Notes under the pieces: model-generated
Database searches by the model: none
The model's input: only the letters and a program-made list of their open reading frames with translations
Told to the model about the DNA's origin: nothing
Position numbers and translations under genes: made by a program
Shown here: positions 5,050-8,657 of the stretch, one piece after another
Layout of the letters: every line of letters starts with the position of its first letter
Numbering within the stretch: position 1 is the stretch's first letter
From: Planctomycetaceae bacterium
Lineage (GTDB): Bacteria > Planctomycetota > Planctomycetia > Planctomycetales > Planctomycetaceae
Assembly (NCBI GenBank): GCA_900299185.1
Contig: OMIV01000381.1
Location: forward strand, 1-40,119
DNA: 40,119 nucleotides
Direction: 5' to 3'

Positions 5050-6141
5050 TTAGCGCTGCACGCGGCCTGATCCGCTGCCCTTCATGAGCGCTTCAATTTC
5101 TTGGCGCGTCGAATAGTTGAAGTCGCCCTTGATACTGTGCTTCAGGCAGCTCGCCGCAACGGCATATCGCAGGGCTGTTCCCGGCTCTGCGAGTTCCGGA
5201 GTGTTCAGCGCGAAGACCAAGCCGCCGGCGAACGAATCTCCGGCACCAACTCGATCGACGATGTGTGTGATTTGATACGGCGAATACTTGCCTTCGCCAT
5301 TCAGCGGGGCAAAGTGAGCCTGGTTACTGGCGACGTCATACAGCATCGCTCCCCAGTTGTTGTGACTCGCCGAGATACTCTCTCGCAAAGTGATCGCAAC
5401 CTTCGAAACGTTCGGGTATCGCTTCACGATCTCTTGCGCGACATGCACATAACCAGCGGTGTTGATCTGCCCGGCATCAATGTTGGAAGACGGATCAGAA
5501 ATGCCGAGCGTCATTTCGGCGTCTTCCTCATTGGCGATCACGACATCAACGAACTCGACCATTTGCCCAATGACTCGCTTGGCAAGTTCCACCGGTTTAG
5601 TTCCCGGCTCCCAATTCCAAAGCTTCTTGCGGAAGTTCAGATCGCACGAAACGGTCAAGCCTTTCGCTTTCGCAGCCTTGACTGCTGCCATCGCAGAGTC
5701 AGCCGCCGCCTTACTGATCGCTGGGGTGATGCCCGTGATGTGCAACCAATTTGCGTCGCGAAACGCTTCGTCCCAGTGATAGGTCTCAGGACCCGCCAAC
5801 GAAATCGAAGATCCCTCGCGGTCGTAGATCACCGTACCGCCGCGTTGGTTGGCTCCCGTCTCGACGAAGTAGATGCCAAATCGTCCCTGCTTGGTGCGAC
5901 GAACCAACCGACTATCGACACCAAACTTGCCGAGTTCTTGCTCCAACGCATCGGTGATTGGGTTGTCGGGCAGGGCGGTCAGATAGGCCGCTTGCCCACC
6001 TTGAAAAGCGACAGAGACCGCAACGTTCAATTCGCCACCACCAAAGGTCGCTTCCAGCCGACCGGGTATCACTTGGCGGACTCGCAGGTTCTCTTCGGGA
6101 CACAGCCGTAACATCACTTCGCCGAAGGTCACAATTCGCAT
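5050..6141 (-). CDS. kdgK: 2-dehydro-3-deoxygluconokinase (PfkB-family sugar kinase)
   Basis: A 363-residue ribokinase/PfkB-family kinase that most likely phosphorylates 2-keto-3-deoxygluconate to KDPG, the entry of uronate and pectin breakdown products into the Entner-Doudoroff route. The N-terminus MRIVTFGEVMLRL, FGGGELNVAVSVA (residues 33-45) with substrate-binding Gly and Asn, and the C-terminal DRVGAGDSFAGGL (296-308), with the catalytic Asp in GAGD, are all visible. The long insert around residues 100-135 and overall length match KDG kinases better than ribokinase or fructokinase. ATG 6141 is preceded by AAGAGG eight bases upstream. No aldolase or uronate isomerase is adjacent, so substrate assignment rests on family resemblance. 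Confidence 0.88.
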   Translation of the reverse strand: MRIVTFGEVMLRLCPEENLRVRQVIPGRLEATFGGGELNVAVSVAFQGGQAAYLTALPDNPITDALEQELGKFGVDSRLVRRTKQGRFGIYFVETGANQRGGTVIYDREGSSISLAGPETYHWDEAFRDANWLHITGITPAISKAAADSAMAAVKAAKAKGLTVSCDLNFRKKLWNWEPGTKPVELAKRVIGQMVEFVDVVIANEEDAEMTLGISDPSSNIDAGQINTAGYVHVAQEIVKRYPNVSKVAITLRESISASHNNWGAMLYDVASNQAHFAPLNGEGKYSPYQITHIVDRVGAGDSFAGGLVFALNTPELAEPGTALRYAVAASCLKHSIKGDFNYSTRQEIEALMKGSGSGRVQR

Positions 6142-6319
6142 GGGATTAGCCTCTTAGGAGTTACGTCGACGCAGCGGCTCTACGTTCAAGCCGAATTTGG
6201 TGGCATCTTCCCGACTTTTCAAAGAGGACCGAAGCGATCAGCCGGGACGATTCCGGTGAATCTTCGAAAATAAATCAGAATCCACCGCCGCAAGTGGGCT
6301 CTTTTCCGAATCTCTTAGG

Positions 6320-6576
6320 TGAGTACTACACAGAGCCTGTCGACTTGTGTGGTCATGGCCTTGCTGATGCTCTCGTGACGACTCTTGAGCAGAGTCGCCT
6401 TTGCCCCGAGGGTTCAACAAGTCTCCTCGGGAGCTTTCTATTGGCTGGGGTGTGTGGTGTGTCTCTGCCCTCAAATTGGTACGCCGCCCCCAGCCAATGG
6501 ATGTTCGCTTTGACAACTTGGTAGATCAGAGTTTCGAACCCGATGGCGCGCGGGCCCGCCATCGGGTTTCTTTTTG
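6320..6576 (+). ncRNA. Candidate structured non-coding RNA with intrinsic terminator
   Basis: The 556-base spacer between kdgK (-) and the Gfo/Idh gene (-) has no credible gene, but reads on the plus strand as a compact folded RNA. Seen directly: a 7-bp hairpin (6379-6385/6391-6397), a 7-bp hairpin (6405-6411/6425-6431), an 11-bp perfect arm pair (6440-6450/6488-6498) enclosing 37 bases, and a 12-bp GC-rich terminator stem (6537-6548/6557-6568) followed by TTTTT at 6571-6575. A weaker closing helix could join CTAC 6326-6329 with GTAG 6521-6524 and TGTC 6338-6341 with GACA 6512-6515. I looked for tmRNA, SRP RNA, RNase P and 6S hallmarks and found none. The 5' end is a guess; no clear promoter is visible. 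It is transcribed opposite to both flanking genes. Confidence 0.5.
6537..6575 (+). terminator. Strong intrinsic terminator of the candidate RNA
   Basis: A perfect 12-bp stem (6537-6548 with 6557-6568) with an 8-base GC-rich loop is followed within two bases by five T residues on the plus strand. The minus side lacks a T run, so it works for plus-strand transcription, where no protein gene ends nearby. Confidence 0.8.
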
Positions 6577-6640
6577 GCTTCAGACAATCTCGATCTAATG
6601 CTCTTCGAGACTTTGCACGCGACGAACTTAGTTCAATGAA

Positions 6641-6670
6641 AAAGGCGGACTGCATTCACAGTCCGCCTTT
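6641..6670 (-). terminator. Intrinsic terminator downstream of the Gfo/Idh gene
   Basis: A perfect 11-bp stem (6641-6651 with 6660-6670) and 8-base loop lie 28 bases past the stop of the minus-strand oxidoreductase. The minus strand continues into a T run (A residues at 6639-6643 on plus). A TTTTT at 6673-6677 on plus makes it potentially bidirectional. Confidence 0.75.
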
Positions 6671-6697
6671 CCTTTTTACTGATCGCCCCGAAGCAGA

Positions 6698-8068
6698 CTA
6701 GAGGCTGACGTTGATCTCATAGCCCTTGCGCTGCTCGCGACCTTGCCACACGTTGAGCGCTTTGTCGTTCGTGATCTGCTCGGTCTTCGGATCCCATTCG
6801 AGCGTCTTGTCCAATCGAATGGCGATGTTCGCCAGATGGCACGTCGTCATCGCTCGATGGTGCGACCACACGTCGCTGATCGGCTTCTCGCGAGTCTTTA
6901 CGCACTCCATGAAGTTCTTCATGTGCGATTCGGGCTTCTTACCGCCATAGACCTTCTCGATCGCGCCGTCGGGCAGCGGCTTATCTTTGAGTGCCTCGAT
7001 CGGACCGCCCTTGATCGCGCCGCGGCTGACATGAAAGCGGCCTTCGGTGCCTTCGAAGAGAATGCCATTGCCGTCTTTCGAGTTGCTGACGATGTGCATC
7101 TCGATGCCTTCCGCGAAGTTGGCTTGCACATGGAACTTGTCAGCGGCGTTGTAGCGGTCGTCTTGCACCGGCATGCCGTTCTTGAACTCGACGGGATGAT
7201 GATGCTCGACGGGAATGACTTTGATCGGCCCGTCTTGTCCGATCGCCCATGACGCGATGTCGACGTGATGCGCACCCCAGTCGGTCATCTTTCCGCCCGA
7301 GTACTCGTACCACCAACGGAACTCGTAGTGGCAACGGCTATTGCCCCAGCGTCCGCCTTCTTTGAAGCGGAAGTCGACGAGCGGAGCTTGCCCGAGCCAC
7401 TTCTCCCAATTGAGTCCCTTCGGCACGTCGGCCTTCGGGATCTCGCCGCACGTCGGAGCCCCGCCGATATCGCATGTCGCCTTCAGCAACTTGCCGATGC
7501 GGCCTTCGCGAATCAGAGCAACCGCTTGAATGAAGCGTTGCCCCATCTCGCTGCGTTGCTGAGTTCCGACCTGAAAGACGCGCTTCGTCTCATTGAGCAC
7601 TTTGACGATCTGCTTGCCTTCGTTGATCGTCAGCGTGAGCGGCTTCTCGCAGTAGATATCCTTTCCGGCCTGCATCGCTTCGATGGCAATCTTCGAGTGC
7701 CAATGGTCGGGAGTAACAATTGTGACAATGTCGATGTCTTTGCGATCAAGGATCTTGCGATAGTCATCGTAGGTGTCGATCGAGCGATTGACGCCCTTCT
7801 TCGTCTGCGCGTCGGTGCAAATCTTCTTACCTTCTTCGACGTGATTGGCATCGACGTCACAGCACGCAACGACATCGCCGAAGTTCATCGCGCCGCCGAT
7901 GACTTGCTTCCAACGATCGCCGGTGCCGATCGAGCCGATCAGCGGCCGCTCATTGGCGCTTTGAAAGCCGTGCGCAATCGGCTGCGAACTGGTGAACCAA
8001 TACGGCATCGTGGCGCCAGCCAACGCGGCGGTGCCCATAAACTGGCGACGGTTTTGACGAGTACTCAC
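6698..8068 (-). CDS. Tat-exported Gfo/Idh/MocA-family oxidoreductase
   Basis: A 456-residue NAD(P)-dependent oxidoreductase of the Gfo/Idh/MocA family. The N-terminus is a twin-arginine signal (NRRQFMG, residues 6-12, then a hydrophobic stretch), so export in folded form is expected, as is common for planctomycete members. The dinucleotide-binding region GSIGTGDRW (45-53) and the hallmark EKP motif (141-143, CEKPLTL) are present, as is a [13 protein letters not shown] motif (DWGAHH is typical of the exported subgroup). The start is taken as GTG 8068 because AAGGAG stands seven bases upstream and the Tat motif follows at once; the frame stays open to 8170 but that extension has no signal-like character. 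Substrate unknown, probably a sugar or sugar derivative. Confidence 0.9.
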
Positions 8069-8657
8069 AGTCGGACTCCTTGTCGAAACAGAAAGAGAAA
8101 TGGCCCAATTTGAGGCGCATGAGAATGCGGCTCGCAGCATGCGAACTAAGGAGTCTAGGACGATCGTCAACAGCTCGTCGATCGTCGCCGTGATCGGCTA
8201 CTTGGGCGCGAAAAAGTCTGACTAACGACTATTGAGTTCATCAGACAAAAGTAAAAGTGCGGTTGAAGGCTTCGAAGAATGGCACCTAACACAAGGGAAT
8301 GTGGTGCTTCAGAGCTTTAACACAAAATCAAAGAGATGCTGGAAACTGAGATTGACGCCGTTAGCATTCGCCGCCGCTGAGGGATAGCGGATGTCGCTAA
8401 TTGGGAATTGGCGGCCGCTGACAGCAAGAAGTTGATGATTGGCCAACGTCATTCATGGCCACTGTGAATCGAAGGAACGATTCGCTCATGCGGAAAGGAC
8501 TCCGCGGTAACACGTCGCTTAATGAACGTGTTTCCGATGAGAACTTCTCGTCGTGCTGATCGCCCCCATTCGAGTCACCGTGCTATGGCAGTGTCGTGTC
8601 GCGGCCCCATCGGCTTCAGGGAGATTCGATCGCTTATTCGAGGGAAAGGAATCCAGT
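8069..8657. other. 589-base divergent spacer with a run of hairpins (candidate leader or small RNA)
   Basis: There is no convincing gene here. On the plus strand, six short inverted repeats follow one another: 8374-8378/8386-8390 (5 bp), 8441-8445/8456-8460 (5 bp), 8466-8471/8478-8483 (6 bp), 8490-8494/8501-8505 (5 bp), 8509-8515/8526-8532 (7 bp) and 8536-8541/8547-8552 (6 bp with one G-T pair). The last four are almost contiguous over 87 bases and end about 105 bases before the next start codon. No terminator T run follows. This could be a structured leader of the amidotransferase-like gene or a small RNA; each hairpin alone is short enough to occur by chance. Confidence 0.35.

Follow-up and report, generated by a model that had tools for sequence, protein, structure and literature searches.

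Regulatory RNAs are seldom annotated in the part of the bacterial tree to which the planctomycetes belong, and a survey counts 8 distinct sRNAs across Planctomycetes, Verrucomicrobia, and Chlamydiae combined versus 345 for Proteobacteria (PMC9029176). Among the described systems, the Rhodopirellula-1 motif was reported from Planctomycetes by Weinberg et al. 2010 (PMC2864571). B11, a 6C-type sRNA of the actinobacterium Mycobacterium abscessus, carries hairpins with two C-rich loops for which pairing to G-rich mRNA sites has been proposed, and either of these loops represses an mRNA (PMC10470900). Other stable intergenic RNAs include 6S RNA (RF00013), with its long hairpin, and CsrB/RsmB (RF00018), which repeats a loop motif in its hairpins and has a strong terminator.

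The window analyzed here, a stretch of 40,119 nucleotides from an uncultured Planctomycetaceae bacterium, contains at positions 6318–6576 of the plus strand what is, from its sequence and that of its relatives, in all likelihood a real RNA gene. It is very probably an undescribed regulatory RNA that occupies the same place and strand in related genera, designated g31, G007, and G065. The functional class is indicated by a conserved intrinsic terminator, a structure with compensatory changes, and the lack of a conserved reading frame. The candidate shares with 6S RNA a stable intergenic fold with a long hairpin, and with CsrB/RsmB the loop motif repeated in hairpins and the strong terminator, but its conserved motif is C-rich and not GGA. 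It resembles B11 in its C-rich hairpin loops, whereas it belongs to a different phylum, has no Rfam match, is larger, shows another architecture, and lies divergent from a kdgK-like gene; by analogy, the resemblance is one of way of working and not of membership. Like the Rhodopirellula-1 motif, it is a candidate structured RNA from Planctomycetes. Judged against Rfam 15 and the open literature, where no description of this RNA was found and from which we know the Rhodopirellula-1 motif by description only, the family appears to be new, while the intergenic structured regulatory RNA is familiar as a kind. The candidate is specific and conserved, its 3′ end and loops are defined, its partner gene is constant, and it is directly testable.

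Genomic Context and Comparison with Known RNA Families

The candidate is located in the spacer 6142–6697, flanked by a pfkB-type kinase gene (5050–6141, minus strand) and a Gfo/Idh/MocA oxidoreductase gene (6698–8170, minus strand), both assigned to sugar metabolism. The kinase contains the PF00294 domain, has orthologues in related genomes, and matches the solved 2-keto-3-deoxygluconate (KDG) kinase 2afb over its whole length (phmmer, E 4.7e-81), which makes kdgK a fair name on sequence grounds; none of the NCBIfam equivalog cut-offs was reached. The RNA is oriented divergently from kdgK and convergently with the Gfo/Idh/MocA gene, and it overlaps no gene, so the preliminary description of this spacer as holding an RNA antisense to its surroundings did not hold in this respect. 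Across the carriers, kdgK is the sole constant neighbor, whereas the far-side gene, where identified, varies by genus, being Gfo/Idh in the window, FabZ-like in g31, and yet another protein in G007, with the names in g31 and G007 given from our reading of the translations.

An Rfam scan, proposed in the preliminary description as a check, returned no family for the locus at the gathering threshold of Rfam 15 and none for 6320–6576 at E ≤ 10, and neither tRNA nor tmRNA was found in the window. The sole match in the surroundings at E ≤ 10, a weak one to CsrB (15.5 bits versus a cut-off of 71), fell on the neighboring hairpin at 6643–6668 of the minus strand and not on the RNA. The earlier statement that none of the familiar housekeeping RNA hallmarks fits agrees with these results and was examined further for 6S RNA, which is common in the class. 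Neither the window's own genome (at E ≤ 0.001) nor its same-genus relative G001 has an Rfam-detectable 6S, though most relatives have one; most simply, the 6S of this genus has probably diverged. Together with the strong fold, this could mark the candidate as a housekeeping RNA, for example 6S, that has diverged. However, the 6S model gave no match at E ≤ 10 in 6100–6720, and carriers in G007, G065, and g31 encode 6S at a separate locus, so the candidate is not their 6S. The identity with 6S was rejected for these carriers, and for the copy in the window we consider a housekeeping origin scarcely credible.

Predicted Structure of the RNA

The fold of 6320–6576 on the plus strand reached −108 kcal/mol versus −86.7 ± 4.8 for shuffled sequences (z −4.5; none of 200 shuffles as stable). 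When stability was adjusted for GC content, the segments starting at 6436 and 6371 of the plus strand ranked first and third among 1228 examined over both strands of the 40 kb. The reverse strand is likewise stable (z −4.0), as is usual for hairpins, and the strand was therefore decided by the terminator and the homologues.

The three strong hairpins noticed in the preliminary description are present at 6379–6397, at 6403–6434 (with the CCCCGAGG stem), and at 6437–6501, the last being a long rod whose position and structure are conserved according to the covariance models R1, R2, and R3 described below and to covariation. Its apical loop motif CTGCCCTC (6465–6472), also found in g31 and G007, is mostly unpaired in the ensemble. 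The textbook intrinsic terminator on the plus strand was equally borne out: it occupies 6536–6576, was recovered by both the terminator scan and the R2 match, and comprises 13 pairs, 8 of them G-C, followed by CTTTTT, with a loop motif, CGGGCC, common to g31 and G065. Less can be said for the possible closing helix, which was predicted weakly and is missing from the centroid. The 5′ end at 6318 was guessed from the arrangement in g31, in which the first hairpin starts 6–9 nt past a conserved upstream block.

Homologues in Related Genera

Recognizable copies were found in seven other species of the three further genera, all divergent from the KDG-kinase-type pfkB gene, and those with a terminator end about 370–430 nt from the kdgK start codon. 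The genome collection from which they come includes uncultured Planctomycetaceae as well as Gimesia- and Schlesneria-like MAGs as named relatives. At this distance, the terminator scan detected plus-strand terminators in five g31 loci (L007, L009, L010, L011, and L013) and in the G065 locus L014, all six carrying the loop sequence CGGGCC that the window also has; other kdgK spacers seldom contain terminators of this kind. Sequence search alone would have labeled the RNA an orphan: blastn with the window RNA found no homologue among 59 relatives, and with the g31 RNA none of note beyond g31.

Three covariance models were built. R1 was made from the window sequence alone, and several of its matches lay ahead of kdgK orthologues, on the strand opposite to that gene (L007, L009, L013, and L014). 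R2 was made from the five g31 species with the window left out; run unfiltered on the window and five loci, its top match was the window at 6430–6573 of the plus strand (40.3 bits; E 7e-8, a rough calibration), followed by L014 in the same place (38.4 bits), with the next best at 15 bits. Over 170 genomes of the family, and under strict filters by which the window's own copy is lost, only g31 and G065 passed E 1e-3 with R2. R3, which adds the window and G065 to the R2 set, recovered the copies in the window, g31, and G065 and no further convincing copy, G001 included. Those weak R3 matches elsewhere (22–32 bits) that were inspected proved to be plain terminators or hairpins in which the UGCCCUC loop is lacking. 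The antisense strand of L007 also scored 38 bits with R2 owing to its near-palindromic stems, which means that part of the 40-bit score of the window reflects generic hairpin content, and the homology claim therefore rests jointly on place, strand, loops, terminator, and upstream block.

The distribution of the RNA is narrow. The nearest kdgK orthologue, from the same genus, is 81% identical, and its upstream region is unrelated to that of the window; the same-genus relative G001 lacks the RNA. No single element is universal, since G065 has no UGCCC in the rod and G007 no separate terminator. Upstream of kdgK in genome G031 (L012), a partial copy keeps the promoter-like block and the 5′ half, whereas it has lost the rod and the terminator, and its GAUGCCCUC loop, invariant in g31, has changed; if this single case is read as a dying copy, the changed loop is as expected. 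The rare distribution, the absence from G001, and the partial loss in G031 would suit chance hairpins or a decaying element with no functional RNA, but position, strand, terminator, loops, covariation, and upstream block recur across genera, and this explanation seems very unlikely.

Covariation, Loops, and Coding Potential

In the alignment fitted to R2, which by its construction leans towards structure, 98% of the cells pair and 23 of the 45 pairs change on both sides, a level reached by none of 500 shuffles. The unfitted MAFFT alignment of g31 alone contains 3 such doubly changed pairs, a count reached in 5 of 500 shuffles, with 0 or 1 in slid controls. A consensus fold that included G007 was left out because its stem was misaligned. 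Homologues in the kdgK-upstream spacers of related genera thus keep their helices while the sequence changes, which was the covariation that the preliminary description had named as a check, and this result, together with the absence of an Rfam match, supports its proposal of a structured RNA that is not yet described and ends in a terminator of its own.

The order of elements in g31 is a 5′ hairpin a few nucleotides past the block, a second hairpin whose loop GAUGCCCUC is invariant, and a short third one; the rod comes next, and a linker of variable sequence separates it from the terminator. The stems covary around loops that retain UGCCC(UC) and CGGGCC. The rod apex GACUGCCCUCGCUGG is invariant in g31, and the apical loop of the long hairpin reads CTGCCCTCGCTGG in g31 and G007 and CTGCCCTCAAATTGG at the same place in the window, where it diverges after CUGCCCUC and where a clear second UGCCC loop is missing. 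The ensembles leave UGCCC unpaired in the g31 loops, in one 5′ loop of G065, and in the G007 rod loop, and mostly so in the window; of the seven sequences with CGGGCC in the terminator loop, all leave it mostly unpaired. A 13-base loop pattern searched in 120 genomes gave about as many matches as its reversed control, and the motif is therefore informative only in context.

A frame of 76 aa is open on the plus strand (6294–6524) and stops 11 bases before the terminator, which could suggest a small protein. The carriers, however, share no reading frame, their frames differing in length, start, end, and sequence, and the stems covary; a coding function is largely refuted and highly improbable.

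Upstream Block and Relation to kdgK

A conserved, promoter-like block of 37 bp (CAGAAT ... CCGCAA ... CCGAAT) lies at 6275–6311 of the plus strand, and as a footprint it aligns without gaps between the window and g31, G007, and G065. With a matrix trained on g31, G007, and G065 and the window left out, position 6275 of the plus strand was the best of all positions on both strands of the 40 kb, narrowly, at 11.3 versus 11.1 for the second-best position (29228, plus strand), and kdgK spacers without the RNA scored at most 6.2. This evidence is independent of folding, and the block belongs to the RNA unit; no sigma-70 consensus was found upstream of the RNA.

The block may serve the RNA, kdgK, or both. 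Its position between the two, and the fact that kdgK is the only neighbor that stays constant, would also fit an action in cis, in which divergent transcription or the block itself affects kdgK and the RNA product matters little. The conserved loops and the compensatory changes in the stems point instead to selection on the RNA product, and we regard a purely cis-acting role as unlikely.

Possible Mode of Action

The fast-changing stems and invariant C-rich loops, together with the precedent of B11, favor a trans-acting RNA that works by loop pairing. By this analogy, a regulatory RNA of about 260 nt, co-regulated with kdgK, would pair with G-rich mRNA sites through its C-rich loops, a tentative reading that we find possible but short of probable. 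The non-coding RNA would be transcribed independently from the plus strand and end at its own terminator, and it would form an RNA family that occurs in a small number of genera within a single planctomycete family, in every case divergent from a gene resembling kdgK. Its freely evolving stems would display conserved loops (UGCCC, mostly UGCCCUC) able to pair with G-rich mRNA stretches, for example GAGGGCA-like or Shine–Dalgarno-like sites, and a control region common to the RNA and kdgK would coordinate the two. The terminator loop CGGGCC may in addition gate the availability of the other loops by pairing with their GCCC, the predicted GGGC–GCCC kiss amounting to four G-C pairs.

The main rival to mRNA pairing accepts the RNA as real and has its conserved loops bind a protein, so that it would serve as a scaffold or as a sponge in the way CsrB sequesters CsrA. 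The occurrence of the same motif in two g31 hairpin loops and the length of the apex GACUGCCCUCGCUGG, which exceeds a simple seed, speak for a protein ligand, but the motif differs from the GGA that marks Csr-type RNAs and the CsrB model finds no match on the RNA, and we judge this rival rather unlikely. To our knowledge, no protein is known to bind a UGCCC-type loop motif. Returning to the trans-acting RNA, a more elaborate version would see a regulatory RNA specific to planctomycetes that links KDG catabolism with translation, in which the C-rich loops bind mRNAs and the GGGC–GCCC kissing between the terminator loop and those loops serves as an internal switch; this combination is speculative and quite improbable as a whole.

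Minor features of the spacer and of its counterparts in relatives complete the description. A second strong hairpin at 6641–6670, with T runs on both strands, is probably the terminator of the Gfo/Idh/MocA gene on the minus strand and could act as a backup of the candidate RNA's own terminator. A possible inverted repeat, CTGTAA ... TTACAG, was seen by eye in L007, L011, and L013 and partly in L014 and L006; it separates kdgK from the conserved block and is perhaps an operator upstream of kdgK.
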